DNA of 64,000 nucleotides, taken from assembly GCF_001641755.2 (NCBI RefSeq), contig NZ_LRFG02000007.1, positions 7,501 through 71,500 of the forward strand, read 5' to 3'. Of this stretch, positions 10,352 to 36,623 are shown piece by piece. Position 1 is the first letter of the stretch. Each line of letters opens with the position of its first letter. The notes below the pieces were generated by a model. That model did no database searches and was not told the origin of the DNA. It saw nothing but the letters and a program-made list of their open reading frames with translations. Position numbers and translations under genes: made by a program. Source of the stretch: Microbulbifer flavimaris (lineage in GTDB: Bacteria; Pseudomonadota; Gammaproteobacteria; Pseudomonadales; Cellvibrionaceae).

Positions 10352-11491
10352 TCAACGATTTTCCGGGTTGGGGTCGATCTCTGACGATGGCCGGTTTTCG
10401 TTGTTGATGATCACGGCTCCTTCATTACGCAGTTTCAACAGTCCACTGGTTGCCACTTGCTGACCGGCTTCCACGCCCTTGAGGATTTCCACCAGGTCGC
10501 CGCGCTCCTCCCCGGTCTGCACCACCCGACGGTTGGCAACGTAGCCCTCTCCTTCCGTGGCCTCCTGCAACACAAAAACCGAGTTGCCATAGGGTGCGAA
10601 CCGGATGGCCGTGCGGGGCACCACCAGCACGCTACGTTCTGCCGCCAGTTCCAGGGTTACATCGGCATACATGCCCGGTCGCAATTCCTGACCGTCATTT
10701 GGCAATGTGGCCTGCACCAGAAAATTGCGACTCTCATTGTCGATTCTCGGATCGATCGCAGTGACTTGGCCGGCAAATCTGCGCTCCGGGTAGGCGCCGG
10801 TGCGAAGCGAGATGGTTTGCCCCACTTGCAACTGCGCAAAATGCTGCTCCGGGAGCGAAAAGTCTGCATAGATGGGCGAGAGCTGCTGCAGGGAAACCAC
10901 CGGATCGCCGGGACTGATATTTTCGCCCAGGTCTACCTGGCGGATGCCCAGCTGACCGGAAAAAGGCGCTTTCACCCGACGCTCCGCCACAGTGGCACGC
11001 TGTACCTCAATGCTGGCCAGTACCTGCTCCAGGGTGCTCAGGGCGTCATCCAGTTCCGCATCGGTGGTCACGCCCCGCCCGTGCAGCTTTTTAATCCGAT
11101 CGTAGTCCCGCCGCGCCAGCTGCAGTTCCGCCTCCAGCACCTTGAGCTGGGCGCGCTCGGGTTCCGCAGTGAGCTCTACCAGTAATGCACCGGCCTCAAC
11201 CGTTTCGCCGGATTTAAAATAGATATTGCTGACCACTCCCTCGGCCTGCGTGGTGACCTCGACGCCATTCACCGCCCGCAGACTCCCCACCGCACTGAGC
11301 CGCGTGCTCCAGGTCTGCTGTTCTACCGAGGCCGACGTCACCGTGGCAGGTGGCAGGGCCATGGTGTCGAAGGCCCGGTTCATCATCATCTTGCCAAACA
11401 TCTTAAAGGCAAAAATGCCACCGAACAGCAGCAGGCAGCCGAGTAGCATCAGCAGCATGGGCTTATTGAAGACTCGATTTTTTGCCGCCAC
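10352..11491 (-). CDS. RND efflux periplasmic adaptor subunit
   Basis: This 379-residue membrane-fusion protein bridges the RND permease and an outer-membrane channel. An N-terminal membrane anchor (about residues 12-32) precedes the split lipoyl/barrel-sandwich domain (VTTQAEGVVSNIYFKSGETV and APFSGQLGIRQVDLGENI). A helical hairpin with LQLARRDYDRIKKL lies between them, followed by beta-barrel and membrane-proximal domains. The start is a GTG with only a weak ribosome site, and the true start could be the ATG at codon 12. It is first in the adaptor-permease operon. Confidence 0.93.
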   Translation of the reverse strand: MAAKNRVFNKPMLLMLLGCLLLFGGIFAFKMFGKMMMNRAFDTMALPPATVTSASVEQQTWSTRLSAVGSLRAVNGVEVTTQAEGVVSNIYFKSGETVEAGALLVELTAEPERAQLKVLEAELQLARRDYDRIKKLHGRGVTTDAELDDALSTLEQVLASIEVQRATVAERRVKAPFSGQLGIRQVDLGENISPGDPVVSLQQLSPIYADFSLPEQHFAQLQVGQTISLRTGAYPERRFAGQVTAIDPRIDNESRNFLVQATLPNDGQELRPGMYADVTLELAAERSVLVVPRTAIRFAPYGNSVFVLQEATEGEGYVANRRVVQTGEERGDLVEILKGVEAGQQVATSGLLKLRNEGAVIINNENRPSSEIDPNPENR

Positions 11492-11713
11492 TAACTAAAA
11501 GTCCCGTTTCTTATCTACGCGCTGTCCTCGGAGCCCTCTTTATTGACGGACACCATCGCTGACAGCATAGGCAATCGGCGGCCGATGCACTTTGCTGGAG
11601 ACTCGAGTGCGGAATGGAAAGCGAGAGAGAAAAGGATCGTTAACGGACGGTGAAAGGATTTGAAGTGCGCCTGAGCGGCCGGCATTGCCGGCTCCAGCAA
11701 CAGGGAGAGCAAA

Positions 11714-22254: not shown

Positions 22255-22359
22255 CGACGCTCAGTTTATATCTGATACGCACGTGCTGTAAGCGCGTGTG
22301 ATTGGCTTTTGCATCCGATGGATTATGCTGGAGATCCCTCACGGACAGAGGACTCCATA

Positions 22360-22941
22360 ATGAAAAAAATAATAAAAAATAATCGGGGATTCACCCTCAT
22401 TGAACTGATGCTGGTGATTACGATCCTCGGTGTAACAATCTCTCTCGCTGCACCACCGATGAGTGATTTCCTCAAGCGCTACCAGGCCGAAGCTCAGAGG
22501 CAGAAGCTTTTTGACCTCATCGCCCTGAGCCGAAGCAAAGCCTATGGCCACGGTCAAATCTACACTCTGTGCGGCAGCGCAGACCGGCAGACCTGTAGCG
22601 GAACCTGGGCCGACGGCGCACTATTTTTCGCAGATACCGATGGAAACGGCTCCCGAACCAGTGACGAGGAGATTGAGAGAGTGATGGAGCCACTACCTGA
22701 TGGTGCATCCCTTACCTGGAGCAGCTTCGGCAACAAGCCCTATTTGCAGTTTCGCCCGAATGGATTAACTCCCAACCAGAGTGGTAATTTCAGTTACTGC
22801 CCACCGGACGGCAATGAGCAATATGGCTGGATTATCGTGCTGAATGCGATGGGACGCCCCTATTACGGCAGGGACAACGATGGCGATGGGAGAGCGGAGA
22901 ACGGCAGCGGGGAAAACCTGAATTGCCCCACCACCGTTTGA
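22360..22941 (+). CDS. FimT/GspH-type pseudopilin
   Basis: The 193-residue prepilin-like protein has the leader MKKIIKNNRG, a cleavage site before FTLIELMLVI with Glu5, and a GspH/FimT-type globular domain. Two calcium-loop-like segments are visible: ADTDGNGSRTSDEE (residues 91-104) and RDNDGDGRAE (171-180). ACAGAGGA lies before the ATG, and a longer frame from 22309 would precede the leader. It follows pilR by 105 bases, in the place of fimT in Pseudomonas, and is convergent with pilE. It is likely a minor pilin of the tip complex; FimT-type DNA binding is possible but not shown. Confidence 0.82.
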   Translation: MKKIIKNNRGFTLIELMLVITILGVTISLAAPPMSDFLKRYQAEAQRQKLFDLIALSRSKAYGHGQIYTLCGSADRQTCSGTWADGALFFADTDGNGSRTSDEEIERVMEPLPDGASLTWSSFGNKPYLQFRPNGLTPNQSGNFSYCPPDGNEQYGWIIVLNAMGRPYYGRDNDGDGRAENGSGENLNCPTTV

Positions 22942-22952
22942 GCTGGTCGATG

Positions 22953-23411
22953 TCAGTTGCAGGTCTTGTTCCAGCAGAGGTCACTGGCCTCTGTCAGGTC
23001 GCCATCATTATCCCGGTCCCAGACTTTTTCGCCACTTGAGGAAAGCTGGACGATTCCATCTGCAGCCTGGCTACCTTTCGGTTGAGCCTGAAGCACATAG
23101 GAGGAACCATCGGCGGCCGTGATGCGCAAGTCATAGGTTTTGTTGGCACCGTCTAAAGGTGACTCAGTCGGAAAGATCTGAGGCGCTCCCGTATCGGCAT
23201 CTGACACTGCAGCCGCCTCATAGGTACCATTCTGGGTAAAGTGCCGCTCCATCGCCTGTGCCAGCCCCAACAGCGCTCCCTGGGCATCAGCGCGGTTGGT
23301 GGACCGCACCTGGTTCTGGTAAGACGGCCAGGCTACGGCCGCCAGGATCGCCACGATGGCCACCACGATCATCAATTCAATCAGGGTAAAACCACGCTGT
23401 TGCTTGATCAT
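22953..23411 (-). CDS. pilE: Type IV pilin PilE
   Basis: The 152-residue pilin has the short type IVa leader MIKQQRG and mature start FTLIELMIVVAIVAILAAVAWPSYQNQVR. The C-terminal domain carries an EF-hand-like loop (WDRDNDGDLTEASD, residues 131-144) directly before a cysteine pair (Cys146, Cys151) that probably closes the D-region. A GTG at 23420 is in frame, but AGGGTG is best placed for the ATG at 23411. It follows the first pilY1 gene, as pilE does in Pseudomonas, and is likely a minor pilin. Confidence 0.88.
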   Translation of the reverse strand: MIKQQRGFTLIELMIVVAIVAILAAVAWPSYQNQVRSTNRADAQGALLGLAQAMERHFTQNGTYEAAAVSDADTGAPQIFPTESPLDGANKTYDLRITAADGSSYVLQAQPKGSQAADGIVQLSSSGEKVWDRDNDGDLTEASDLCWNKTCN

Positions 23412-23446
23412 TTTTATCACACCCTAGGTATTACTGTTCTGGGAAC

Positions 23447-23484: not shown

Positions 23485-26400
23485 TTATCTTGGTGAGAAC
23501 TCTTCCCAAGACAGGCGCCCTTCCCGCTCCTCGTCGCCCACGTCGATATCATCACAGATTACATCACCACTGCTGCCCGGGGTACAGCGTACATCGCCGA
23601 TAAAGCCCGACTGGCCCGGCATACCCGGATCGCTGCCGCCGTTACCGCCATCTTCATCACAGCCCCCACCCACACAGGCATCGAAGGCCATACCCACATA
23701 ACCGTCATCGCCGGCATCAATAGAGCCATCGTTGTTGAAGTCCGCAACAGCGTCATCGTTGGCTTCACCGGTGCGGAAGTCGAGGCTCATCAGATAGCCA
23801 CGGCCACTGGAAGCACAGGGTTGCGGGTTCGGGCTGACGGTACTGAAAAACAGGGTGTTACGGCGCAGTGTCGCGGACGAAATGACCCGCTCACCGGCGA
23901 AGCCTGTACCATTCACATCGCCAGTATCCAGCAGGATCTTCCAGCCCTGCTGGCTGGTCCAGTCCAACGCCTCTGTCAGTGGGTTGTCATAATCCACCTG
24001 CCGCGCGGTGCCATCGTCTGCCAGCACGCGCGTCGCCAGGTCATCGGCGACAACTGAGTTGCTGCCGAGTGTGTAGTCATTGTCCCAAACCGCGTAGAAA
24101 GCACTGGCGGTATCATCAACCAGGTCGCCGCTGTTCAGGTACTGCCCGGTGCCGAACATCACCAGCACATTTGCACCAGCGCCGGTGACTGCAGTGTTAC
24201 GCGCCACCAGGGGGGCAGACATGATCGCCGCAGACGGTTCACCAGCTTGCGCACCGGCGCTGAACAGCGGCTTGCCACCATACACGCCCCAGCCGCTGTC
24301 CGCAGTGGCGGAGAGGTCGAAAGACCACATGTTACCCATCAGGTCGCCTGCGTAAACGCGGTCGACAATGCGATCGCCATTGAGGTCGATCAGCCGCGGG
24401 GAAGACAGGCCGTTTTTACGACCGGTAGCGCTAGCACCCATTCCAGTAGAGATGTATTTCCACTCACCGGCGGTCCAGCTGCCATCCAAGCCATCCTCGA
24501 TGTAGACAACAAACAGACCGGCCTCGCCGTTATCGCTGTTGTAGCCGTTACCAAAGATCACCGCCCACTTGCCGTTATTGAGCTTGGCGATCTGCGCCTC
24601 GGAGTAGGAATGACCGAGATTGGCCGCGTCATCTGCGCCGTCAAATTCCCACATTACGATCTCATCGGCGAAGGTCTCATTGAGCCGGGCCGGATCAGTC
24701 ACATTGAGGGCAAAGTATCCTTTGCCACCACCACGCAGCCCGCCCACGAGCACTGACAGCCACTCCTCCTTGTTGCCACCATCAGGATCGATGTAAATAT
24801 CCGAGACCGTTGGGGTCAGGTCGACATAATAGTTGTGGCTGTACTCGCTGTGGGTGAAGGAGTGCAGGCCTTCGTATCTGGCAGCATCCAGCACCAGCGA
24901 AGGGACATAGCCGAAAACTTCCTCACCGGTTTCCGCGTTGAAGCCGTGCAACATGCCGTCATTGGCACCAACGTACACCATCGGTGTGCGCGAGGTGTTA
25001 TCGATCTTGAATTGCTCGTACTTTTCATTGTTATTGTTACCACCGAAACTGGCGGGCCAGTTCAGCTCCGGCTTTCCGACATAAATCGGGGTCGAGTGGA
25101 CGATGTCACCCAGCAGCTTCGGACCGGTAAAACCGTCCAGCAGGGTCGAGAAGGTACCCCGCTGACGGTAACCGTTGACGCCATCGTTGGTCGTATCGCC
25201 ACGCAGGTAAGTCAGGCGATCAGCCCAGGCAGCGTCGGCATTGCCAGTGCCGTCATCAATGTTCAGGTCATCCTCATGCGGCGAGTCCGGATCTCCATCG
25301 ACACCCGTAGTTCCCGCTGTCAGCGGCACCCCCTGGCCATTGAAGTAGGTGATGATCTCCCGCGTCGAGGAGGTTTCGTCCGAGAGCTCTTCCGAGGCCT
25401 CCCACAGGGTGGAAGCAATCCGACCAGTATCCGGATTTAACGAGCGTGCATACAGGCGCCCGCTGAAATCCGAGGTATCGAACTTTGCCGAGTAGATAAC
25501 CGAGCCGATATCCAGTGAGGTGGAGTTGAAGGCAACCGACGCCTGCGTACCAACGGAGTTGGAGATGGCATTCACTGCATCGTTCAGCGAGGCCGCCAGC
25601 GCATCGGCGCTGTCCGCAAACTGGTAACTGCCCCCGCCCTGTGAGCCCGCACTTTGCAGCAGCGCGTTGTCAGCCAGATCGGTATCGGCAAAGCCGATGT
25701 AGTAACTGGTGATGTTGTTCTTGTGAGTCGGATCCGTTGGATCGGTCAGGTCCGGGCGCCAGTCAATATCGTAGAGCGCCTTGGCCACATCATCGAGCGC
25801 ATCGGCGTCGTCAACATTGCCATCCCCATCGTAGTCCTGGAGGTGGGTAGTGTAGGCAGAGTCATTGTTGGGAAGGCCGTCGGTCAGCGCCAGAATAAAG
25901 TTCGCCTGGCAGTAATTGGTAATCGCCGGGTTGCTCGCTGTCGGGGCTGTCGCGCCAGAGTAGTTCGGGCCCGGGTTACCGGGGTCACCCAGCACCTGCC
26001 CGGCGGTAAACGTGCTTTTTTCCTTAACTGCATCGCCCGGGTGGATTGTTACGGTATTGCCGGTAAAGCCCTCAACGAAATAATAGCCAAGATCGGTTAC
26101 TGCCTCGGCCAGGGGAGTAACACCGCCAGCCTCAATCGCATTGATCTTGGTGATGATGCTATCACGCGCACCCGTATCAGAGATGCTTGTGAGCCCCTGC
26201 AGCACCGTCGCGCCATCCCCGGCATTGAACCGGGCCAGACCAACCCGCAGCTCCCCCAGCCCCCCGACCAGTTTGGTCGCCGCCTGCTGGGCCACTTCCA
26301 GGCGGGTTTCCCCGCTCGCAAGGGTGTTATTCATTGAACCCGAGGAGTCCATCAGGATCATCAGGTTAGGCTCAACCTTACCAGTGGCCTGCAGAGGAAC

Positions 26401-26514
26401 ATCAGAAAGTGTCAGGGGCTCGGCACTGATACAGGTAGAAAAAGTAAAAGAAAAACCGCACAGACCGTAAAAGAGCGGCTTCAGAGCAAATTTTTTCAGC
26501 ATTGTTTTGTTCAT
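23485..26514 (-). CDS. pilY1: PilY1 homologue, copy A (tip adhesin)
   Basis: PilY1 is a calcium-binding pilus-tip/adhesion factor. The 1009-residue protein has a signal peptide (about 1-31) and a von Willebrand A domain with a complete MIDAS Asp56-x-Ser58-x-Ser60. A C-terminal PilY1 beta-propeller begins near VYVGANDGMLHGFNAETGEE. Three calcium-loop candidates are seen: DYDGDGNVDDAD (227-238, in the VWA domain), DLNGDRIVD (710-718, the known PilY1 site) and an EF-hand-like loop DFNNDGSIDAGD (925-936). The C-terminus carries a Gly/Asp-rich linker and GRLSWEEFSPR. AGGAAGG precedes the ATG. It is the last gene of copy A before pilE. Confidence 0.92.
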   Translation of the reverse strand: MNKTMLKKFALKPLFYGLCGFSFTFSTCISAEPLTLSDVPLQATGKVEPNLMILMDSSGSMNNTLASGETRLEVAQQAATKLVGGLGELRVGLARFNAGDGATVLQGLTSISDTGARDSIITKINAIEAGGVTPLAEAVTDLGYYFVEGFTGNTVTIHPGDAVKEKSTFTAGQVLGDPGNPGPNYSGATAPTASNPAITNYCQANFILALTDGLPNNDSAYTTHLQDYDGDGNVDDADALDDVAKALYDIDWRPDLTDPTDPTHKNNITSYYIGFADTDLADNALLQSAGSQGGGSYQFADSADALAASLNDAVNAISNSVGTQASVAFNSTSLDIGSVIYSAKFDTSDFSGRLYARSLNPDTGRIASTLWEASEELSDETSSTREIITYFNGQGVPLTAGTTGVDGDPDSPHEDDLNIDDGTGNADAAWADRLTYLRGDTTNDGVNGYRQRGTFSTLLDGFTGPKLLGDIVHSTPIYVGKPELNWPASFGGNNNNEKYEQFKIDNTSRTPMVYVGANDGMLHGFNAETGEEVFGYVPSLVLDAARYEGLHSFTHSEYSHNYYVDLTPTVSDIYIDPDGGNKEEWLSVLVGGLRGGGKGYFALNVTDPARLNETFADEIVMWEFDGADDAANLGHSYSEAQIAKLNNGKWAVIFGNGYNSDNGEAGLFVVYIEDGLDGSWTAGEWKYISTGMGASATGRKNGLSSPRLIDLNGDRIVDRVYAGDLMGNMWSFDLSATADSGWGVYGGKPLFSAGAQAGEPSAAIMSAPLVARNTAVTGAGANVLVMFGTGQYLNSGDLVDDTASAFYAVWDNDYTLGSNSVVADDLATRVLADDGTARQVDYDNPLTEALDWTSQQGWKILLDTGDVNGTGFAGERVISSATLRRNTLFFSTVSPNPQPCASSGRGYLMSLDFRTGEANDDAVADFNNDGSIDAGDDGYVGMAFDACVGGGCDEDGGNGGSDPGMPGQSGFIGDVRCTPGSSGDVICDDIDVGDEEREGRLSWEEFSPR

Positions 26515-26523
26515 GAATCCTTC

Positions 26524-27060
26524 CTAGAAGCGCTTGCCGTAGTGGCTGACGATCACTCGAGTCGTACTGTCGGTAAGGCCCTGCCCTCTGGCAATGATGC
26601 GGAACACTTTTACCTCCCCGCCGCCGGTGGTCTGGCCGTAGCCGCCAATGGTAATACTGTCAGCGGGATCCTCTTTGTCGGCATTGCCGGCGATTTCGAT
26701 ATACATGCGCCCCGATAACTGATTGCCCTTGGCATCTTTCATCGGCACCTCAAACAGGTTTGACGATGCGTCGCTCCAGGTGGCAGCTGCCAGCAGATCA
26801 TCTGGGGCCTCCCCTTCCGCATGCAACCAGTTCAGGCTGCCGAATTCTCCCGTGGTGGAGATGCCATCGATATACTGCTCGCCCTGCCTGACCAGTGCCT
26901 CGGCTACCTCCAATGCCACTTTGGCGTCGCGGGAGGCGAAGGTCATTTTCTCCTCCAGCAAGACTGTCCGGGCCGCCGAAACTCCAATCAGGGTCAAAAC
27001 CAGCAATACGATCAGGCTGACAACCAGTACTGCGCCTCTCTGTTGCGAGATTACTCTCAT
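26524..27060 (-). CDS. pilX: PilX-type minor pilin, copy A
   Basis: The 178-residue protein has a short leader (MRVISQQRG), the hydrophobic helix AVLVVSLIVLLVLTLIGVSA without Glu5 as usual for PilX/GspK-like pilins, and the PilX signature ARTVLLEEKMTFASRDAKVALEVAE. In Pseudomonas, PilX belongs to the PilVWX-FimU-PilE priming and tip complex. The ATG overlaps the pilW stop (TAATG), which indicates translational coupling. The C-terminal third (GGYGQTTGGGEVKVFRI to SHYGKRF) is almost the same as in copy B. Confidence 0.9.
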   Translation of the reverse strand: MRVISQQRGAVLVVSLIVLLVLTLIGVSAARTVLLEEKMTFASRDAKVALEVAEALVRQGEQYIDGISTTGEFGSLNWLHAEGEAPDDLLAAATWSDASSNLFEVPMKDAKGNQLSGRMYIEIAGNADKEDPADSITIGGYGQTTGGGEVKVFRIIARGQGLTDSTTRVIVSHYGKRF

Positions 27061-28130
27061 TACATTCTCCCCCGATTACGGATCTTGGCCGTGCTCAGGT
27101 AAACCTTGCGCAGCTTGCCGTCACTGTAAGTGGTATCAACACCATCGAGGTCAGTCACCGTCAGGTCGTCGGCACGAACGGCACTGTCACTGGCAACCAC
27201 CAGCTGAATTTTTACCGCAATAGCCTCTTCCATTTGCGCCGCTGTAAGGCCCGCGGCCGAGGTCCAGCCGTCGACCACTTCATCACCGTCATTATCACGG
27301 CCATACAGAATCTGCATATCGTCGATGCCCGGCACCAGCTCCTGCACACCAGTGCCGGTGGCGGAGATATACAGTGAGGGACCGCCGGTTCCCTCGGCAA
27401 TGAAGTAGGTGCGTTCGTAGGGCTTCAGGATCCGCGCATCGGCACCGTACTGGCGTTGCAGGGTTTTGGTGGCGTTGTCGACGGCACCGGTCAGGTTGCA
27501 GCTGCCGGTATTGTGCGTGATTGTCTTCTTATTAGCGTTGGTGTTGTTTACCGCCCCGGAATTATTACAGCCACCCTCCCCCTGCACAGAAGTGATGGTC
27601 ATCAATTCGCCGCTCTGGCAGTTGGTCAGCAACACGATGTCGCCGGCGTCCACTTCACACGAGGCACTGACATGGAGCGCCGCGGCCTGGATACTCGGAA
27701 CCATGCGGCCAGCACCGCCGCAGGCATCGTCCGAACCACGCAGCGTCAGGGTGTCGGTTCCATCGACAACGTTGACCGTGCCAATAGTCAACCCACTGAC
27801 ATTGTCCTCACCCAGCACACCGTCAGCCCCAATCTGGTCGTACAGGTCCTGGGCACTGGCATAATCAGCATCCGTGGTGTCGAGATGGTTCTGAATCGCG
27901 CTTTCATCCGGTACACAACCCCAGTAATCCGCCATGCGGATTTCCTTGGTCATCAGGTCCATGGCGAAGCGGCCACTCTCCTGCACCCGGGCGAATGCGG
28001 TCTGCATTTGCATGGTGTTGCGGTTACTGTCAAAGATCTGCAATACGCCCCAGAGCAGCATGGCGCTCAGCAGGATTGCGATCATCAGTTCAATCAGCGA
28101 CAGGCCTCGCTGTCTGGCAAGTAACTTCAT
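27060..28130 (-). CDS. pilW: PilW-type minor pilin, copy A
   Basis: The 356-residue PilW family protein has the leader MKLLARQRG and mature start LSLIELMIAILLSAMLLWGVL, then the family segment FARVQESGRFAMDLMTKEIRMADYWGC. Many cysteines lie in the globular domain. A calcium-loop-like segment RDNDGDEVVD (278-287) follows ILYG. It is part of the minor pilin tip complex. It starts 2 bases after the pilV stop and overlaps pilX by one base. Confidence 0.9.
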   Translation of the reverse strand: MKLLARQRGLSLIELMIAILLSAMLLWGVLQIFDSNRNTMQMQTAFARVQESGRFAMDLMTKEIRMADYWGCVPDESAIQNHLDTTDADYASAQDLYDQIGADGVLGEDNVSGLTIGTVNVVDGTDTLTLRGSDDACGGAGRMVPSIQAAALHVSASCEVDAGDIVLLTNCQSGELMTITSVQGEGGCNNSGAVNNTNANKKTITHNTGSCNLTGAVDNATKTLQRQYGADARILKPYERTYFIAEGTGGPSLYISATGTGVQELVPGIDDMQILYGRDNDGDEVVDGWTSAAGLTAAQMEEAIAVKIQLVVASDSAVRADDLTVTDLDGVDTTYSDGKLRKVYLSTAKIRNRGRM

Positions 28131-28132
28131 GT

Positions 28133-28606
28133 CTACAGCTCCACGACCATCACAAAGGAGGAGTTTTCTGTGCCGCCAGCAGCGGTGCCCCGGTCTGCGC
28201 CGGTATGTTGCTCGTTCCAGCCCACGGTCAAAGTCACCGTGCGGCCGACCCGGGTGATTTCACCAGAGCCCGCCGGCAGGTTGCTATCGATAACCTGCCC
28301 CCAGTCATACAGATCCAGATTGGCGAGGTCTCCGGCAGAGCAAGAAAGCGTCGCACCACAGGTTGGTGCCGTCTCGCTGCCGTCTACGGTCTTGCCGTCA
28401 TAGCTGCCGAGTTCGAGGCCATCCGGGTTTGCCCGCATGCGCTCGGCCATTTCGTGGGCTGCCAGTGCGGCCATATAGCGGTGGTGCGCATTATTACCAT
28501 TCTTCAGGCTCATGACCTGGGTCGCCGATAGCCCGAGAAGGCCCACCGCCAGTACCAGGATGGTCACCAGCACCTCAATCATGGTCGCGCCAGTTTGCTG
28601 CTTCAT
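28133..28606 (-). CDS. pilV: PilV-type minor pilin, copy A
   Basis: The 157-residue prepilin has the leader MKQQTG and mature start ATMIEVLVTILVLAVGLLGLSATQVMSLK. The helix MAALAAHEMAERMRANPDG follows, typical of PilV/GspI-like pilins. A cysteine pair lies in APTCGATLSC. A strong TAAGGAGG ribosome site precedes the ATG. It lies between fimU and pilW. Confidence 0.9.
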   Translation of the reverse strand: MKQQTGATMIEVLVTILVLAVGLLGLSATQVMSLKNGNNAHHRYMAALAAHEMAERMRANPDGLELGSYDGKTVDGSETAPTCGATLSCSAGDLANLDLYDWGQVIDSNLPAGSGEITRVGRTVTLTVGWNEQHTGADRGTAAGGTENSSFVMVVEL

Positions 28607-28615
28607 CGTGCCTCC

Positions 28616-29140
28616 TTAACTACATGCTTCGCCGGCAGAGGCGCGCAGCACCCCGGAGGCCAGCAGCCTGAGCTTCTTGCCGTGATTGCCGGTGCGGTCA
28701 TCGCAGACAGTGACTTCCATCACATTGCCCCCACCGTTCACCGCGCCACGGGGGCTGTAGCTCATGTCGATGTCCGCTTGCGCCGTGCCATCAACCTCGC
28801 CGGAAATCACCAGGCCGGAGGCCGCCGGGAGGCGAACCACGCGGAGCTCCTCACCGGCATCGAAGCCGCCATCGCCGTTCTCGTCGAACCAGACACGCAG
28901 GCCATTGGCGATGTCGTTGTCGAGCGCCTCTACCTGCACGTCGCGGCCGCGGCGCACGGCCTCAGAACGGGCAAAGTGCAATGCACCGGCCACGTCATTC
29001 GAGGCCGCCGTCAGGCGGTTGTTCTTGATCATGGTGTTGAAGGAAGGAACCCCGATACTCATGACGATGGCGAGGATCGCCACTACCATCATCAGCTCAA
29101 CCAGGGTAAAGCCAGCTTGACTGGCACGAGAAGTTAACAT
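28616..29140 (-). CDS. fimU: FimU/GspH-type minor pilin, copy A
   Basis: The 174-residue prepilin has the leader MLTSRASQAG and mature start FTLVELMMVVAILAIVMSIGVPSFN, then the GspH/FimU segment ASNDVAGALHFARSEAVRRG. Residues 86-97 (DENGDGGFDAGE) make a complete 12-residue EF-hand-like loop with acidic or Asn ligands at positions 1, 3, 5, 9 and 12. A GTG at 29170 is in frame upstream; neither start has a strong ribosome site, and 29140 gives a normal leader length. It is first in copy A. Confidence 0.87.
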   Translation of the reverse strand: MLTSRASQAGFTLVELMMVVAILAIVMSIGVPSFNTMIKNNRLTAASNDVAGALHFARSEAVRRGRDVQVEALDNDIANGLRVWFDENGDGGFDAGEELRVVRLPAASGLVISGEVDGTAQADIDMSYSPRGAVNGGGNVMEVTVCDDRTGNHGKKLRLLASGVLRASAGEACS

Positions 29141-29633
29141 CGCGGTTGACCCATTTCCGAAACATGACACAGCTGACCAAGCCCTTGTCCTTAAGAGATT
29201 GGCGGAAAGGATTCTAACCGAGGAGAATTGGAATGAATTTGACTAAGAAGCCAGATCGACGAGCGGCGAATTCCTCCCGACAAGCGGCATATCACCATTC
29301 GCCAGGTGAGAAGCTGGTCTCACAGAGACTGCGATGCTGGCCAAAAAGCAGAAAGCCCTCTGGCGCAATCCAGAAGCCTTGCCCGGACCCCTGCGCCAGT
29401 CCGGCCAGCGATCTGAGAGGATGCAGTATTGGTACGGGGCTGCCCCCTGCCAAGCTGGCGCCCGCTCCAGGCTGCCTACAGGCCATCTGCAATCACTACA
29501 GGCTGCGGTCCCGCTGACATGAATATCGCGTTTGCCTCTACCGTCATTGACTTATCCCACTGCCGGAGCGATCGGGACAACGACGCCGCTCCGGCCGCTT
29601 TCGACTGTGATATCACCGATATCGCAGGAAGCT
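29141..29633. other. Spacer between the two pilin cassettes
   Basis: This roughly 490-base region separates pilY1 copy B from fimU copy A. A 9-bp inverted repeat (29562-29570 / 29587-29595) lies about 40 bases after the pilY1 B stop and may reduce read-through, although it has no T tract. A TAGAAT box at 29216-29211 (minus) could be a -10 for copy A, but no good -35 is present. A plus-strand frame at 29233-29517 (94 codons) has GAGGAG 9 bases before its ATG but no recognisable family. Confidence 0.5.
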
Positions 29634-32600
29634 TTACCTGGGCGAGAACTCTTCCCAGGACAGGCGCCCCTCACGCGCCTCATTGCCCACATCGATATCA
29701 TCGCAGATCACATCACCGCTACTACCCGGGGTACAACGCACGTCACCGATAAAACCTGACTGGCCGGGCATGCCCGGATCACCACCCGAGCCGCCACCTT
29801 CGCCACAGTCCTCAGTACAGGCCTGGAACTGCTTGCCCACGAAGCCCTCGTCCTGCGCATTGATTTCACCATCATTGTTAAAGTCAGCAACGGCATCATT
29901 GCCAGCACGACCGGTTCGGAAGTCCAGGCTCATCAGATAACCGGAGCCGCTCGATGCACAGGGCTGGGGGTTGGGGCTGACAGTACTGAAGAAGAGGGTA
30001 TTGCGGCGTACGGTTGGTGATGTAATCACACGCTCCGCCGCGTAAGCAGAGCCAAACCCACTGCCATCATCCAGGACCATTTTCCAGCCCTGATGGGTTG
30101 CCCAGTCCACTGCGACACTTAAATTTTCATCAATGGTCCGATTAGTGCCAACGGGCTTCAACACCTGCGCGGCCAGGTCATCGCCAGTTATTGCACCGTT
30201 CGCAAGTGTGTAATCGTTATCCCATACAGCGTAAAAAGCTCCCGGGGTGCTGCCGGTAAGATCTCCGGTATTGAGGTATTGGCCTGTGCCGAACATCACC
30301 AGCACATTGGCTCCATTGCCGGCTGGCGCCACACTCGTATTGCGGGCTACCAGTGGAGCGGAGAGAATCGCGTTGTTTGGCTCACCTGTATTGCCTGTGG
30401 TAAACAGGGGAACGCCGACATAGGGCCCCCACGTCTCGCTGTCATTACCTCCGCTGACATTGCCATCCTGATCAGAAAGGTCGAAGGACCATAGATTACC
30501 CATCAGGTCCCCGGCATAGACGCGGTCTACAATCCGATCACCGTTCAGATCGATCAGACGAGGAGACGATAAGCCGTTCTTGCGCTCACCCACAGCGCCA
30601 GCACCGGTGGAGATAAACTCCCAATCGCCCGCGTCCCAGCTGCCGTCGGCGCCTTCTTCGATGTAAACGATAAACAGACCGGCGACACCGCTCTCACTGT
30701 TGTAACCGTTGCCGAAGATTACCGCCCACTTGCCATTATTAAGTTTGGCAATTTGCGCTTCGGAGTAGGAATAGCCGAGGTACTGGGCATCAGTCCCACC
30801 GTCAAATTCCCACAGGGCAACAGCTTCTGCATTCGCCTCATCAAACTGGTGCCCCTGGGTAACTGTGCCGCTTGCATCACTCTTGCCAGCACCGGAAACA
30901 TTCAGAGCAAAATAACCCCTGCCACCCCCTCGTAAACCACCCACCAGCACTGTCGCCCATTCGTCAATTCCATTGCCGTCCGAATCGATATAAACATCAG
31001 AAACTGTAGGTGTCAGATCCACGAAATAGCTATGTTGATAGGTGCTATCGGTAAAGCTGTGCAGCCCTTCGTGACGACCACTATTCAGCAGTAGAGCGGG
31101 AATATATGCAAAGATTTCCTCGCCCGTGTTGGCATTGAAACCATGCAGCATACCGTCATTGGCACCCACATAGACCATCGGGGTCCGATCCGCATTGTCG
31201 ATGCGGTACTGCTCGTAGGATTCACTTGCATTGTTGCCACCAAAAGTACTCGGCCAGTTCAACTCAGGCTTGCCAACATAAATTGGTGTACTGTGAACAA
31301 TATCGCCGAGCAGCTTGGGGCCAGTCATGTTATCAACCAGCGCGGAGAAACTGCCCCTCTGACGGTAATTGCCAACACCATCATTGGTGGTATCGCCGCG
31401 GATATAACTGAGGCGGTCTACCCAGGCGCCATCATCCAGACCTGTACTTTTGTTTATATTCAGGTCGTCTTCGTGAGGAGAATCCGGCAAATCGGTATCG
31501 ACACCCGCGCTGTCGGCTGTGAACGACACGCCCCTGCCATTCAAATAGGTAATGATTTCCCTCGTGGACGAGGATTCATCAGCCAGCTCCTCGGAGGCCT
31601 CCCACAGGGTATTGGCGATTCGACCGGTATCGGGATTCAGCGAACGCGCATAGAGGCGACCACTGAAATCCGAGGTGTCAAATTTTGCAGAATAGATGAC
31701 AGAGCCGATATCCAGCGAGGTGGAGTTAAATGCAACCGAGGCCTGGGTACCGACAGAATTCGAGATTGAGTTAACGGCATCATTGAGGGAGCTGGCCAGG
31801 GAGTCCGCACTATCGGCGAACTGATAGCTGCCACCCCCCTGGGCACCTGCTGATTCCAGCAAGTTATTCGTTGCCAGGGCAGGATCTGCAAAGCCAATGA
31901 AATAGCTGGTTATATTATTTTTATGGGAAGTATCATTGGGATCATCAAGATCCGGTCGCCAGTTGATGTCATATAAAGCTTTGGCAACATCATCTAGTGC
32001 GTCCCCGTTGGTGGAGTCATCGTCCAGGTCATAGTTCGCGAGATAGCTGGTGTATGCCGAATCATTATTCGGCAGACCGTCGGTCAGTGCCATGACAAAG
32101 TTTGCCTGGCAGTACTCCTGAATCGCAGGATTATCCCGTGTCGGCTTGGCGGCTCCTGATGCATACACGGGGCCAGGGTTACTACTCGCGCCCAGAACTG
32201 CACCGGCAGAAACATCTTCACTGTTGTCCGCATCCCCGGGGTGAATCGTTACTTTGTCATCAGTCCCGGTATAACCTTCCACAAAGTAATAGCCCACATC
32301 CGTCAGCGCCTCGGCCAACGGAGTCACACCATCGGCATTGATCAGATCGATCTCGGTCAAGAGAGCATCTCGGGCACCATCTTCGGAAATACTGCGCAGA
32401 CCCAACAAAATTTCAGCACCATCCCCACCATTGAACTGGGCAAGACCGACCCTCAGATCCCCAAGGCCTCGCACCACCGTCTTGGCCGCCTCTTTGGCGA
32501 TATAAAGCCGGCTGTCTGTCGGGTCTGTCGCTGTCGTCTGGCTATCCAGATACCAGGCCATTGAGCCTGATGAGTCCATCAGAATCATCAGGTTTGGTTC

Positions 32601-32741
32601 TACCTTACCCGTGGCCTGCAGGGGAACATTCGACAGCGTAAGGGGCTCGGCACTTATACAGGTTGAGAAAGTAAATCCAAAGCCAAAAAGCATGTACAGA
32701 AGTGGCCTCGGCGCGAATTTCTTCAGCTGCTTGTTGTTCAT
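29634..32741 (-). CDS. pilY1: PilY1 homologue, copy B (tip adhesin)
   Basis: The 1035-residue paralogue of copy A has the same architecture: signal peptide, VWA domain with MIDAS Asp56/Ser58/Ser60, PilY1 propeller with DLNGDRIVD (731-739), an EF-hand-like loop DFNNDGEINAQD (953-964) and the same GRLSWEEFSPR end. It differs in the segment after the MIDAS (an insertion DSQTTATDPTDS), and the VWA calcium-loop region reads YDLDDDSTNGDALD, so the copy A loop is not kept. A further insertion lies in the propeller (SGTVTQGHQFDEANAEA). AGGGAAG precedes the ATG. Confidence 0.92.
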   Translation of the reverse strand: MNNKQLKKFAPRPLLYMLFGFGFTFSTCISAEPLTLSNVPLQATGKVEPNLMILMDSSGSMAWYLDSQTTATDPTDSRLYIAKEAAKTVVRGLGDLRVGLAQFNGGDGAEILLGLRSISEDGARDALLTEIDLINADGVTPLAEALTDVGYYFVEGYTGTDDKVTIHPGDADNSEDVSAGAVLGASSNPGPVYASGAAKPTRDNPAIQEYCQANFVMALTDGLPNNDSAYTSYLANYDLDDDSTNGDALDDVAKALYDINWRPDLDDPNDTSHKNNITSYFIGFADPALATNNLLESAGAQGGGSYQFADSADSLASSLNDAVNSISNSVGTQASVAFNSTSLDIGSVIYSAKFDTSDFSGRLYARSLNPDTGRIANTLWEASEELADESSSTREIITYLNGRGVSFTADSAGVDTDLPDSPHEDDLNINKSTGLDDGAWVDRLSYIRGDTTNDGVGNYRQRGSFSALVDNMTGPKLLGDIVHSTPIYVGKPELNWPSTFGGNNASESYEQYRIDNADRTPMVYVGANDGMLHGFNANTGEEIFAYIPALLLNSGRHEGLHSFTDSTYQHSYFVDLTPTVSDVYIDSDGNGIDEWATVLVGGLRGGGRGYFALNVSGAGKSDASGTVTQGHQFDEANAEAVALWEFDGGTDAQYLGYSYSEAQIAKLNNGKWAVIFGNGYNSESGVAGLFIVYIEEGADGSWDAGDWEFISTGAGAVGERKNGLSSPRLIDLNGDRIVDRVYAGDLMGNLWSFDLSDQDGNVSGGNDSETWGPYVGVPLFTTGNTGEPNNAILSAPLVARNTSVAPAGNGANVLVMFGTGQYLNTGDLTGSTPGAFYAVWDNDYTLANGAITGDDLAAQVLKPVGTNRTIDENLSVAVDWATHQGWKMVLDDGSGFGSAYAAERVITSPTVRRNTLFFSTVSPNPQPCASSGSGYLMSLDFRTGRAGNDAVADFNNDGEINAQDEGFVGKQFQACTEDCGEGGGSGGDPGMPGQSGFIGDVRCTPGSSGDVICDDIDVGNEAREGRLSWEEFSPR

Positions 32742-32750
32742 TTTTCTTCC

Positions 32751-33311
32751 CTAGAAGCGCTTTCCGTAATGGCTGATAATGATCCGAGTGGTACTATCGG
32801 TCAGGCCCCGACCCTGGGCGACGATGCGGAATACTTTGATTTCCCCACCCCCGGTCGTTTGCCCATAGCCGCCGACCGTAATACTGTCGGCGGGGTCTTC
32901 TTTATCGGCATTGCCGGCAAGCTCAATGTAATAACGGCCGTTCAGGGCGGTGCCATCCGGCGCCTGCATACTCACAGTTTTTGATGCGGAATTGCCGCTA
33001 CCCCAGGTCGCGCTATCAAAAAGGCTGTCCGGTCCCTCGCCTTCAGGGTGAAGATGAGCCATCACTCCAAAACCTCCCGTGGTCGACATCCCCTCGATCT
33101 CCGTCTCTGCGGCCCTGACCAATGACTCTGCAACTTCCAGGGCCACTTTTGCGTCCCGTGAAGCAAAAGTCATTTTCTCTTCCAGCAGCACGGTGCGCGC
33201 TGCAGAAACGCCAATCAACGTGAGAACGAGTAGGACAATCAGGCTGACGACGAGCACGGCACCACGCTGTCGCGAAAGGCCTGCAATATGCGAACGTCCA
33301 GGCATGGTCAT
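32751..33311 (-). CDS. pilX: PilX-type minor pilin, copy B
   Basis: This 186-residue paralogue of copy A PilX has a longer leader (MTMPGRSHIAGLSRQRG) before AVLVVSLIVLLVLTLIGVSA and the same LEEKMTFASRDAKVALEVAE signature. The middle differs from copy A (FGVMAHLHPEGEGPDSLFD) while the last 55 or so residues are nearly identical. The start overlaps the pilW B stop as TAATG, as in copy A. Confidence 0.9.
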   Translation of the reverse strand: MTMPGRSHIAGLSRQRGAVLVVSLIVLLVLTLIGVSAARTVLLEEKMTFASRDAKVALEVAESLVRAAETEIEGMSTTGGFGVMAHLHPEGEGPDSLFDSATWGSGNSASKTVSMQAPDGTALNGRYYIELAGNADKEDPADSITVGGYGQTTGGGEIKVFRIVAQGRGLTDSTTRIIISHYGKRF

Positions 33312-34393
33312 TAGAGCCTCCCCCGGTTGCGCACTTTTGAAGTGGTCAGGTAGACCTTGCGCAGCTTGCCATCTGTATAAGTGGTAATTTGGCCATCCAG
33401 ATCCGCGACATCCATATCATCTGCCCGGACACTGGTATCGCTGGTTGCGACGAGCTGAACTTTAATGGCCACCGCCTGCTCCATCTGCGCAGCGGACAAC
33501 CCGGCGGAGGAAGTCCATGTGTCCACGACCTCGTCATTGTCAGCATCACGCCCGTAAAGGATCTGCATGTCTTCCACACCGGGCACCAGTTCCATGGCAG
33601 TGTTGCCGGTGTCGGCGACATACAGGGAGGGCTCGCCGGTTACCCCACTATTGGCAATAAAGTAGGTGCGCTCAAAGGGTTTGAGAATTCTTGCATCGGC
33701 GCCATATTGGCGCTGCAGTGCTTTCGTGGCGTTATCGATGGCCCCAACCTGGTTACAGGCGCCGGTATTGTGCGTGATGGTTTTTTTTCTGTTATCGGTG
33801 TTGTTTACGCTAGTCGTCGTGTTGCAACCGCCTTGCCCCTGCACAGAGGTGACGGTCATCAGTTCGCCACTCTGGCAATTCGTCAGGAGAATGACATCAC
33901 CCGGCTCTACCTCGCACTGTGCACTGACATGCAATGCAGCAGCCTGGACACTGGGGACCATGCGGCCCGTGCCGCCACAGGCATCGTCTGCGCCACGAAT
34001 AGTCAATGTATCCGTCCCGTCCAACACTGGGACGGCACCGATCGTAAGACTGCTCGCATTGTCCACACCACCAACGCCGTCGGCTCCGATCTGATCGTAC
34101 AGATCCTTTGCCGACGAACCGCTGTAGTCCGGGTCGCTGGTATCGAGATGGTTTTGAATGCTGGCCTTGTCCGGCGCGCAGCCCCAATAATCCGCCATGC
34201 GGATCTCCTTGGTCAGCAGGTCAGTAGCAAAGCGGCCACTCTCCTGCACCCGCGCAAAAGCCGTCTGCATCTGCATGGTGTTGCGATTACCGTCAAAAAT
34301 TTGCAGCACCCCCCAGAGCAACATCGCACTGAGCAGTAAAGCGATCATCAGCTCGATCAGCGACAGGCCGCGTTGATTTCCAAGTAAATTCAT
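33311..34393 (-). CDS. pilW: PilW-type minor pilin, copy B
   Basis: The 360-residue paralogue of copy A PilW has the leader MNLLGNQRG and mature start LSLIELMIALLLSAMLLWGVL, with the same FARVQESGRFATDLLTKEIRMADYWGC block. The calcium-loop position reads RDADNDEVVD, with Gly replaced by Asn relative to copy A. A TTG at 34399 is in frame, but the ATG at 34393 with GGTGGAG upstream gives the better leader. Confidence 0.9.
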   Translation of the reverse strand: MNLLGNQRGLSLIELMIALLLSAMLLWGVLQIFDGNRNTMQMQTAFARVQESGRFATDLLTKEIRMADYWGCAPDKASIQNHLDTSDPDYSGSSAKDLYDQIGADGVGGVDNASSLTIGAVPVLDGTDTLTIRGADDACGGTGRMVPSVQAAALHVSAQCEVEPGDVILLTNCQSGELMTVTSVQGQGGCNTTTSVNNTDNRKKTITHNTGACNQVGAIDNATKALQRQYGADARILKPFERTYFIANSGVTGEPSLYVADTGNTAMELVPGVEDMQILYGRDADNDEVVDTWTSSAGLSAAQMEQAVAIKVQLVATSDTSVRADDMDVADLDGQITTYTDGKLRKVYLTTSKVRNRGRL

Positions 34394-34395
34394 TT

Positions 34396-34875
34396 TCAAA
34401 GCTCCACCACCATCCGAAAAGTGGATTCCTCGGTACCGCCGGCCGCGGTACCACGATTCTCTCCGGTGTGCTGTTCATTCCAGGTCACTATGAGTGTGAC
34501 CGTTCGCCCTACCCGGTTAATTTCTCCTTCACCCGCTGGCAGGTTAGTGGAGATCACTTGCCCCCATTCGTAGAGATCCATACTGGCGAGATTGGAGGCG
34601 CTGCACGCGCTGCTGCAGGCGACGCTGGTCTCGCTTCCGTCCACGGTCTTGCCGTCATAACTGGCGAGTTCCAGCCCATCCGGGTTAGCCCGCATCCGCT
34701 CGGCCATTTCATGTGCTGCCAGCGCAGCCATATAGCGATGGTGAGCATTGTTGCCATTTTTCAGGCTCATGACCTGGGTGGCGGAAAGCCCGAGGAGACC
34801 GACGGCAAGCACCAGGATGGTCACCAGCACCTCGATCATGGTTGCGCCTTCCTGTCTGCGCATGATTCCCTTCAT
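34396..34875 (-). CDS. pilV: PilV-type minor pilin, copy B
   Basis: The 159-residue paralogue of copy A PilV has the leader MKGIMRRQEG and mature start ATMIEVLVTILVLAVGLLGLSATQVMSLK; the helix MAALAAHEMAERMRANPDGLEL is identical to copy A. AGGGAG sits 7 bases before the ATG at 34875. Its TGA stop lies immediately before the pilW B ATG. Confidence 0.9.
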   Translation of the reverse strand: MKGIMRRQEGATMIEVLVTILVLAVGLLGLSATQVMSLKNGNNAHHRYMAALAAHEMAERMRANPDGLELASYDGKTVDGSETSVACSSACSASNLASMDLYEWGQVISTNLPAGEGEINRVGRTVTLIVTWNEQHTGENRGTAAGGTEESTFRMVVEL

Positions 34876-34885
34876 CACTTTCTCC

Positions 34886-35383
34886 CTAGCTACAGGTAAG
34901 CGGCGCGCTTTGGAGTACGCCGGTGGAAAGGACGCTCAGCTTGCGCCCCGCCTCTCCACTGGTAGAGTCCTCACAGATCTCGATCTCAAGGAGACCCGGC
35001 ATAGTGGTCTGGCCGTCAGGCAGGTAAGAAAAATCGATACTGCCGCTGGCGATAGAGACGGCGGGTCCATTGCAGCTGCTGGTCCGCCGCAGCACCTCAT
35101 CGGGATCAACATCACTGCCACCATCGAGATCGCGGTATACGGTCACGCCCGCTGCGATGCCGGAAGGCGCGGTAACGGTGACGGGAGCAACCACGCGAAC
35201 GGCTTCGCTGCGGGCAAACTGCAACACTCCCACGAGGGCATTCGCACAAGCAGTTCGCTTGTTGCGCTGAATCAAGTCATTAAAAGAGGGGGCGGCCAGG
35301 GCAGTTACGATAGCCAGAATCGCCACAGTGATAAGTAGCTCCACCAGGGTAAACCCGGCGCGCCTCGAGAATCCGTTCATCAT
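34886..35383 (-). CDS. fimU: FimU/GspH-type minor pilin, copy B
   Basis: The 165-residue prepilin has the leader MMNGFSRRAG and mature start FTLVELLITVAILAIVTALAAPSFN. The globular domain is clearly different from copy A, and the EF-hand-like loop is altered (RDLDGGSDVDPDE, residues 84-96, still with Asp85, Asp87 and Glu96). AGGAAA precedes the ATG. As first gene of copy B it should follow the promoter of the whole pilin block. Confidence 0.87.
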   Translation of the reverse strand: MMNGFSRRAGFTLVELLITVAILAIVTALAAPSFNDLIQRNKRTACANALVGVLQFARSEAVRVVAPVTVTAPSGIAAGVTVYRDLDGGSDVDPDEVLRRTSSCNGPAVSIASGSIDFSYLPDGQTTMPGLLEIEICEDSTSGEAGRKLSVLSTGVLQSAPLTCS

Positions 35384-35642
35384 TATTGTCGTTTCCTGTC
35401 CAGTCGTTGGACTACGACCCTTTGTATCGCTGGCGTCGACGTCGGCGCAATAGCGGTTGGCGCAGGAAGCTACAGAAAGGGATCAAAGGTCGTGCTCAAC
35501 AGACGAGCGGGCGAGAAAATGGCGGGAGGTTTGGCATTTGACGCCAGAAGTTCAGCGGATTTACCAACCACGTGGTGGAAATACGCGGCATGGCTCGGTA
35601 GGGGTTTCGCCTTCCCTGGCGAAAACTTGGTGCAAATCCTCG

Positions 35643-36575
35643 CTAGCGCAGCTCTTTGGGCAGCGAGAAACGAATGTTTTCCTCGCGGCCAGACATCTCG
35701 GCCGGCGGCTCGGCGCCCAGCTGCTGCAGGCGATCGATCACCTCCTGCACCAGCACTTCCGGTGCCGAGGCCCCGGCCGTGATCCCGATGGCACTCTTCC
35801 CGGTCAGCCAGGCAGGGTCGATATCCGCCGCGCCGTCGATCAGCTTTGCCGAAGCACCACAGCGCTGCGCCAGTTCGCGCAGGCGGTTGGAATTGGAACT
35901 GTTGGGGCTGCCCACCACCAGCACCAGGTCGCTCTCCAGCGCAAGCTGGCGCACCGCATCCTGGCGGTTCTGGGTGGCGTAGCAGATGTCGTCTTTGCGC
36001 GGGCCGCGGATATTGGGGAAGCGCGCGCGCAGGGCGTCGATGACCTTGGCTGTGTCATCCATGGACAGGGTGGTCTGGGTCACAAAGGAGAGGTTGCTCT
36101 CGTCCTTAACGGCCAGCTTCGCCACATCCTCTTCATCCTCCACCAGGTAGATGGCACCACCACCACTGGTGTCGTACTGGCCCATGGTACCTTCTACCTC
36201 CGGGTGGCCGGCATGACCGATCAGGATGCACTCGCTGCCGTCGCCGCTGAACTTGCTCACTTCCATATGGACTTTGGTCACCAGCGGACAGGTGGCATCG
36301 AACACTCTCAGGCCGCGGTCAGCGGCTTCCTGCTGCACCGCTTTGGAAACACCGTGGGCACTGAAGATCACGATTACGTCGTCGGGCACTTCGGAGAGCT
36401 CGTCCACGAAGATCGCGCCGCGGTCACGCAGGCTTTCCACCACGAACTTGTTGTGCACCACCTCATGGCGCACATAAATGGGCGCACCAAACACGTCCAG
36501 GGCGCGATTGACGATATCGATCGCCCGATCGACGCCGGCACAGAAGCCGCGGGGATTTGCCAGTCGGATTTGCAT
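35643..36575 (-). CDS. ispH: 4-hydroxy-3-methylbut-2-enyl diphosphate reductase
   Basis: IspH (LytB) is the iron-sulfur enzyme of the last step of the MEP isoprenoid pathway. The 310-residue protein starts [19 protein letters not shown] as in E. coli and has the three cluster cysteines Cys12, Cys96 (DATCPLVTK) and Cys198 ([10 protein letters not shown]). GAGGTAAG precedes the ATG, which excludes the upstream GTG at 36581. It ends the murJ-ribF-ileS-lspA-fkpB-ispH gene string. Confidence 0.96.
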
Positions 36576-36623
36576 AGTCACTTACCTCGCTCGGGCACCC
36601 TGCAAGAGGCACCCGTCAGCCCC

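Follow-up and report, generated by a model that had tools for sequence, protein, structure and literature searches.

A tandem array of two minor pilin/PilY1 cassettes between ispH and pilE in Microbulbifer flavimaris

The window analysed here, a stretch of 64,000 nucleotides from Microbulbifer flavimaris (contig NZ_LRFG02000007.1), holds two sets of minor pilin and PilY1 genes between ispH and pilE. On the minus strand cassette A (29634-35383) is followed head to tail by cassette B (23485-29170), both in the same orientation, and in each the open frames and the Pfam and NCBIfam matches define five genes on one strand in the order fimU-pilV-pilW-pilX-pilY1. The upstream flank is the conserved ispH (35643..36581, minus strand). 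At the other end, 64 bp beyond pilY1-B, lies pilE (22953..23420, minus strand), the sole pilE seen in the array, and the downstream flank is fimT (22309..22941) on the opposite, plus strand. No RNA family reached its gathering score between 22000 and 37000. In what follows G000 is the genome from which the window comes (3.64 Mb in 30 contigs), and the other G-numbers are the relatives with which it was compared.

All ten cassette genes are on the minus strand. Cassette A begins with fimU-A (34886..35383; 165 amino acids (aa), with GspH and N_methyl domains), followed by pilV-A (34396..34878; TIGR02523, 9e-25), pilW-A (33311..34399; PF16074, 9.9e-19), pilX-A (32751..33311; PF14341, 1e-11) and pilY1-A (29634..32741; 1035 aa; PF05567, 6.2e-50). 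The counterparts in cassette B are fimU-B (28616..29170; 184 aa counted from a GTG, with an ATG inside at 29140 as the likelier start), pilV-B (28133..28606; TIGR02523, 1.5e-24), pilW-B (27060..28130; PF16074, 1.2e-17), pilX-B (26524..27060; PF14341, 1.5e-11) and pilY1-B (23485..26514; 1009 aa; PF05567, 2.6e-53; VWA_2, 9.1e-9). Thus each copy has the Pfam families GspH and N_methyl (in FimU), PilW, PilX_N and T4P_PilY1, and the NCBIfam family PilV (TIGR02523). The pilW and pilX genes overlap by one base of the TAATG type in both cassettes, the fimU-pilV gaps are 7 and 9 bp, and the pilX-pilY1 gap is 9 bp in each. A prepilin-type core with its glycine is found in all eight pilins, with GFTLVE, GATMIE, GLSLIE and GAVLVV in both copies; the lack of Glu5 in PilX is usual for PilX pilins.

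PilY1-A is made up of a signal peptide, a VWA head, a beta-propeller and a conserved tail. The T4P_PilY1 propeller (PF05567) is over its cut-off in both proteins, while the Pfam VWA_2 score is over the cut-off in PilY1-B and just under it in PilY1-A (26.2 against 27). All three parts of the metal ion-dependent adhesion site (MIDAS), that is DSSGS, the threonine of TPLAEA, and TDG, are present in both. PilY1 scores far below the cut-off of the NF040838 profile. PilY1-B matches the structure of Pseudomonas aeruginosa PilY1, 3HX6 (phmmer 1.9e-63), and the model of PilY1-A, the one used in the structure search, matches both 3HX6 and VWA folds. The models are of low confidence, with a mean predicted local distance difference test score of 56.8 for A and 49.7 for B (60-90 for most of the VWA part) from input alignments of 7 rows, and so they are used for the fold only, leaving the ligand surfaces unmapped. 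An earlier note on this DNA had described two complete and intact cassettes with the same order, spacings and TAATG coupling, and that description is borne out by the families, frames, prepilin cores and MIDAS parts found in each copy, with spacings that are nearly rather than exactly equal.

The two cassettes are far from identical. They share 69% of DNA positions over 5.3 kb, so that 31% of aligned positions differ, and synonymous sites are saturated or nearly so. Protein identity is 46% for FimU, 83% for PilV, 77% for PilW, about 73-74% for PilX and 73% for PilY1; fimU has therefore diverged much more than the other four genes, and the two are of different types. In the VWA head the most conspicuous difference is the loop that follows the MIDAS sequence DSSGSM, which is 50% identical and 7 residues longer in A. 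It had been considered as the most divergent part of PilY1 between A and B, an idea that was dropped because three windows in the propeller are 43-47% identical.

A pair of A and B cassettes is also present in G004, which is assembled as a single contig of 3.86 Mb. This, together with the 31% divergence, shows that the repeat is real and old, and rules out an assembly artefact. Compared with their G004 orthologues, the five genes of A have ratios of nonsynonymous to synonymous substitution (dN/dS) of 0.04-0.10, and the five of B ratios of 0.03-0.09. Purifying selection acts on every one of the ten genes and neither copy is decaying; the open frames and dN/dS values together exclude a pseudogene copy. 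The earlier note had raised both an artefact of assembly and an inactivated copy, and neither holds. A plasmid origin was also discarded, since the 3 records that tblastn with PilY1-B gave in a plasmid collection, from Legionella and Neisseria, do not reach 60% identity.

The ancestry of the cassettes was analysed with 69 distinct cassettes, after removal of one overlapping record; they come from 47 PilY1-bearing genomes of Microbulbifer and from three relatives. The trees have 64 rows for FimU, 68 for PilV, 68 for PilW, 60 for PilX and 69 for PilY1, since not every minor pilin was detected in each cassette. Sisterhood of A and B, taken over the trio of G000 (the window), G004 and G012, is rejected by the approximately unbiased (AU) test for PilV, PilW and PilX combined (p 2.9e-8), for FimU (p 1.8e-7) and for the body of PilY1, everything from aa 331 onwards (p 0.026). 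In the separate gene trees PilV-A, PilW-A and PilX-A fall beside the lone cassette of G021, with support of 88, 99 and 99 in the Shimodaira-Hasegawa-like approximate likelihood ratio test, and the PilY1 body of A groups with it also (96/94). On the rpoB tree G021 lies beside G015 and G022, outside the trio to which the window belongs (G000, G004 and G012). The G021 cassette is 84, 80 and 81% identical to A in PilV, PilW and PilX; the corresponding values for B against A are 83, 77 and 73%. FimU-A is placed with G004, slot 1 of G012, slot 2 of G013, and G017. It groups with G012 slot 1 (95/98), while its grouping with G021 is rejected (AU p 5.7e-70); conversely, for PilV, PilW and PilX of A it is descent with G012 slot 1 that is rejected (AU p 1.2e-8). 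Since these histories differ, cassette A is a mosaic with its joint between fimU and pilV, and it is not the sister of B.

Borders emerge on comparing the DNA of the window with that of G012. Identity is 86% in ispH, 64% in the intergenic region and 82% in fimU-A; the alignment then ends at 34691 within pilV-A, and resumes at 29293, before fimU-B. Between these borders G012 has another cassette type, with 40-57% protein identity from PilV to PilY1. The alignment is best read as one bounded replacement that begins inside pilV and ends ahead of the fimU of the following cassette, and either of the two lineages may be the one that was overwritten. In P. aeruginosa PilV, PilW, PilX and PilY1 are stated to be mutually dependent, with FimU incorporated independently (PMC13190605), and the fimU/pilV joint matches that dependency pattern.

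Within PilY1-B the VWA head (aa 51-300; 25615..26364, minus strand) has diverged from its own orthologues. Against the G004 orthologue identity is 98% over aa 1-50, 32-60% over aa 51-205 and 74-100% in windows from aa 206. In the head tree PilY1-B departs from its orthologues (p 0.045), and in the body tree it stays with them (100/100). The VWA head may be a third exchange module. Its best matches are only 62-63% identical (G013 slot 3, and A), and hence no donor is named. The PilY1-A head is 80-90% identical to that of G004.

The genes at the downstream end of the array have their own peculiarities. Between the window and G004 pilE has a synonymous divergence (dS) of about 2 at 93% protein identity, where rpoB, ispH and fkpB have dS 0.46-0.84, as if pilE had been exchanged or were unusually diverged. 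FimT is 52% identical in G008 and 58% in G021, with synonymous sites saturated, where ispH is 92 and 85% identical respectively; fimT may have been swapped together with cassettes.

How general are such arrays? PilY1 is found in 47 of the 48 genomes of the genus. If a tandem array is defined as two or three distinct PilY1 frames that share a contig and a strand and lie within 10 kb, 11 of those 47 have one (G000, G004, G005, G006, G008, G012, G013 with three, G016, G019, G024 and G027). A single pilE stands at the array end in five of the 11 (G000, G004, G008, G012, G019), a pilE follows every cassette in three (G005, G006, G016), and in the other three the pattern is different or pilE was not detected (G013, G024, G027). 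Outside the genus, the family list has arrays in at least G054, G124, G125 and G119, the second pilY1 of the last lying at a contig end without minor pilins. Of the 88 genomes with PilY1 that the order sample contains beyond Microbulbifer, at least 6 have them (G149, G158, G162, G197, G200, G233), as do 3 of 74 in the class sample besides the window's own genome (G299, G320, G327). Seven of these nine order and class loci, on being read, have two pilV-pilW-pilX-pilY1 sets; the second set of G233 is partial, and for G162, in distinction from the rest of the seven, the second PilY1 was taken from the order-sample PilY1 search. The earlier note had set the window against known loci with one cassette, a contrast that falls away given these arrays and the several clusters of Myxococcus xanthus and Xylella fastidiosa.

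Other arrangements were also seen. G023, which has three PilY1, G035 and G041 carry extra PilY1 genes on other contigs or more than 1 Mb away. In G023 and G035 (L048, L049, L051), which are very close on rpoB, extra tip cassettes lie in regions without ispH or pilR. G158 (L142) has three pilY1-like genes in succession, encoding 1059-1091 aa, with no minor pilins detected between them. In G337 a PilY1 match (C19:41588-42634) reads through one TGA codon.

Within the genus the type of cassette changes frequently. With one cassette from each of 46 genomes, the last where there are several, sorted into five classes of the PilY1 tree, the rpoB tree requires 19 class changes (18-20 in a set of 200 bootstrap trees). 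For the tandem state the number of changes is 7 (6-7 in the bootstrap trees), against 10.0 in shuffles. Within one rpoB clade, G021, G015 and G022 carry three different PilY1 classes.

The regions upstream of the two fimU genes share a motif. They are 259 bp (before fimU-A) and 463 bp (before fimU-B), and each contains one AlgR-type box CCGCTCGTC, at 35502..35510 and 29258..29266 on the minus strand; this sequence occurs nowhere else on the minus strand of the window. The box before fimU-A is the one good box there, while that before fimU-B is paired with a second, CCGCTTGTC (29279..29287, minus strand), 21 bp from the first. AlgR and Vfr are reported to activate fimU in P. aeruginosa (PMC8787478), for which the AlgR consensus is given as CCGTTCGTC and the fimU-ABS1 site as CCGTTTGGC (PMC4064291). 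Sequences matching CCGYTYGTC with at most one mismatch are present in 58 of 64 fimU upstream regions (from the window and L034-L087), at 87 sites against 8 expected with the loci as background. Pairs exactly 21 bp apart number 19, and all other offsets within 15-30 bp provide one. Thus a 21-bp direct repeat of AlgR-type boxes precedes many fimU genes, although the arrangement is not unique to these regions by count alone, a single strand of the loci as a whole (626 kb, fimU upstream regions included) having 9 such pairs. The window's genome has a gene pair that is AlgZ-like and AlgR-like, named from domains and our own reading. Each cassette could have its own AlgR-driven promoter, that of B being the stronger.

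Both cassettes appear to be served by a single pilus machine. A search of the whole genome found no PilY1 besides A and B. There are five PilB-family matches, one of which is over the curated cut-off, and two PF00114 pilins close to pilB; it is on this one PilB and these two pilins that a type IVa pilus (T4aP) machine is counted in the genome. The single PilB over cut-off suggests that both tip sets work with one machine, and with the one pilE of the array this agrees with the shared machinery proposed in the earlier note. The two PF00114 major-pilin genes adjoin each other near pilB (G000 C1:9074-9424 and 11292-11642); two shafts besides two tips would multiply the combinations.

How might such an array work? 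In M. xanthus and Neisseria the tip complexes have been modelled with FimU at the base and the PilY1 head at the tip (PMC13190605). By analogy, each cassette would encode a T4aP tip and priming complex of four minor pilins and PilY1, with the VWA head outermost, and would prime pili and leave that head at their end. AlgR probably binds the boxes and turns on both cassettes, B through its two-box direct repeat and A through its one good box. If the two are expressed simultaneously, the cell would present two different heads to surfaces or partners, presumably with different ligands, on pili whose tips are of type A, of type B or mixed. The cassettes would be renewed through homologous recombination, either whole or from pilV to pilY1 with fimU staying in place, and perhaps with the PilY1 VWA head exchanged on its own.

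We consider it likely that the interval between ispH and pilE is an array of slots, holding two functional, non-sister tip cassettes for one machine that are renewed module by module through recombination. A number of observations weigh against this. Whole-length PilY1 rejects neither the grouping of A with B (AU p 0.21) nor that of A with G021 (p 0.27), and support for joining the combined PilV, PilW and PilX of A to G021 is weak (68/100, not starred). Some of the groups in the AU tests were picked after the trees had been seen, the species tree is that of one gene, rpoB, and the PilY1 classes were assigned by hand. Shuffled labels average 25.5 class changes and came down to the observed 19 in 1 of 300 shuffles, so there is vertical signal alongside the frequent change. 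The p value of 0.045 for the PilY1-B head is borderline. Between A and B the head is 71% identical, the propeller 73% and the part after the propeller 66%; the head being no more diverged than the propeller, A/B divergence fails to single it out. Concerning control, the AlgR-type boxes are motif matches, and a scan for promoters and terminators was at chance (7 against 6.4 and 8 against 11.3 expected), for which reason no promoter is claimed. Lastly, ancient paralogues followed by loss could also yield the grouping of A with G021.

That last possibility is the best of the alternatives, if in our view rather unlikely. It would have paralogous cassettes already in the common ancestor, lost to a different extent in its descendants and subject to some gene conversion, in place of lateral import. 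Slot-1 PilY1 of G008, G019, G013 and G006 forms one clade and slot-2 or slot-3 PilY1 of G008, G019 and G013 sits in another, as such a history would have it; the 80% PilW identity of A and G021 is near, and not above, the 85% of ispH, so that vertical descent would allow as much; and the cassette classes retain some vertical signal. Against it stand the differing histories of fimU-A and pilV-A, the bounded pilV-pilY1 replacement between G012 and the window, and the three PilY1 classes in the clade of G021, G015 and G022. Recombination is needed regardless.

Subunits of A and B might also mix in one complex, the second cassette serving to widen the combinations, although we think this an unlikely reason for the array. 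The parts concerned with assembly are conserved: A and B do not differ in mature PilV 1-60 or PilX 1-30, and their PilY1 tails are 88% identical, so that mixed complexes are possible, a further point against two strictly separate tips. The independent incorporation of FimU in P. aeruginosa (PMC13190605) points the same way. Mixing alone needs less than a full five-gene set kept under selection in each cassette. The earlier note's alternative tip complexes thus stand as the natural reading of two selected copies with one pilE and one PilB, but its allotment of a separate PilY1 to each is less secure, given that mixing is possible. Less probable again is that the copies are redundant and kept for dosage, with interchangeable tips that bind the same target. 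The same identities in PilV, PilX and the PilY1 tail would suit it, as would boxes before both cassettes and a head that has diverged no further than the propeller; it sits poorly with long divergence under selection on both copies, with the different length and sequence of the loop after DSSGSM, and with the very different replacement cassette of a close relative. Finally, tandem duplication of a single cassette in place within this lineage, followed by divergence, which was how the earlier note had named the locus, is very improbable, for although gene order is the same, spacing near-equal, PilV to PilY1 73-83% identical and an A+B clade acceptable to whole-length PilY1, it is rejected by PilV, PilW and PilX, by FimU and by the PilY1 body, and the single cassette of G021 matches A as closely as B does, or closer, in PilV, PilW and PilX. 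These alternatives concern origin, redundancy and mixing and overlap with the slot array, so that their likelihoods and its own are not expected to sum to one.

We return to the array of slots renewed by recombination. A wider form of it, which we put forward tentatively and as somewhat less likely to be right than wrong, is that in Microbulbifer and related Gammaproteobacteria the ispH-pilR interval is a place where cassettes under AlgR-type control are imported, stacked and overwritten. The module borders (fimU/pilV, and VWA head/propeller) would follow the joints of the tip complex, and a lineage would keep the tip of one slot steady and use the other slot to try out new ones. Since relatives gain, lose and swap sets here, one pilus machine can probably take different tips. 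If so, the diversity of type IV pilus tips is a renewable set at one locus and not one adhesin per species, comparable to other surface-antigen cassettes. The 69 distinct PilY1 proteins are a natural collection with exchange borders marked by evolution, and would offer a simple test of whether the VWA heads decide the target that the pilus holds.

The operon of P. aeruginosa has one cassette where the window has two, and PilC1 and PilC2 of Neisseria are adhesin genes, not whole cassettes. In gene content and order the P. aeruginosa fimU-pilVWXY1Y2E operon is like each cassette, and the propeller of its PilY1 (3HX6) is matched by the propeller found here; there is no room here for pilY2 in the 64 bp between pilY1-B and pilE. 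AlgR sites are likewise reported upstream of its fimU; good boxes repeated at 21 bp, such as those found here, are not described for P. aeruginosa in the cited portion of that paper (PMC4064291). Among the matches listed from open-access papers, preprints excluded, we found none that dealt with the pili of Microbulbifer or with minor pilin/PilY1 cassettes in tandem, and in the same literature tandem stacking, module-wise replacement and the 21-bp box repeat were not found in print. PilY1 and Microbulbifer do occur together in PMC6505155, whose title indicates a Pseudomonas genome.

Closer parallels come from bacteria with more than one tip set. M. xanthus likewise has several full clusters, 1 to 3, for its T4aP machine; PilY1.1 or PilY1.3 alone is reported to suffice, and the clusters are expressed differentially (PMC13190605, PMC9109919). 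Those clusters differ from the present ones in being separate and less than 36% identical, with DUF4114 in two of three heads, and a tandem array is not described in the cited portions of these papers. Neisseria PilC1 and PilC2 are two tip adhesins reported to differ in N-terminal regions and in function (cited in PMC13190605). In X. fastidiosa there are paralogous pilEVWX/pilY1 sets within a cell, whose mutants are reported to have different and often opposite phenotypes, and these lie in two genome regions as against one tandem array here (PMC9956873). At the comC/pilY1 locus of Acinetobacter baumannii a recombination block of seven T4aP genes is reported, with the flanks spared and variants of the VWA head; there one cassette is exchanged, and the cited portion does not describe stacking (PMC10374093). 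Thus several tip clusters in one cell are already known from Myxococcus and Xylella, and block exchange at this locus from Acinetobacter, according to the portions cited; in Microbulbifer the cassettes stand in tandem at a single locus.

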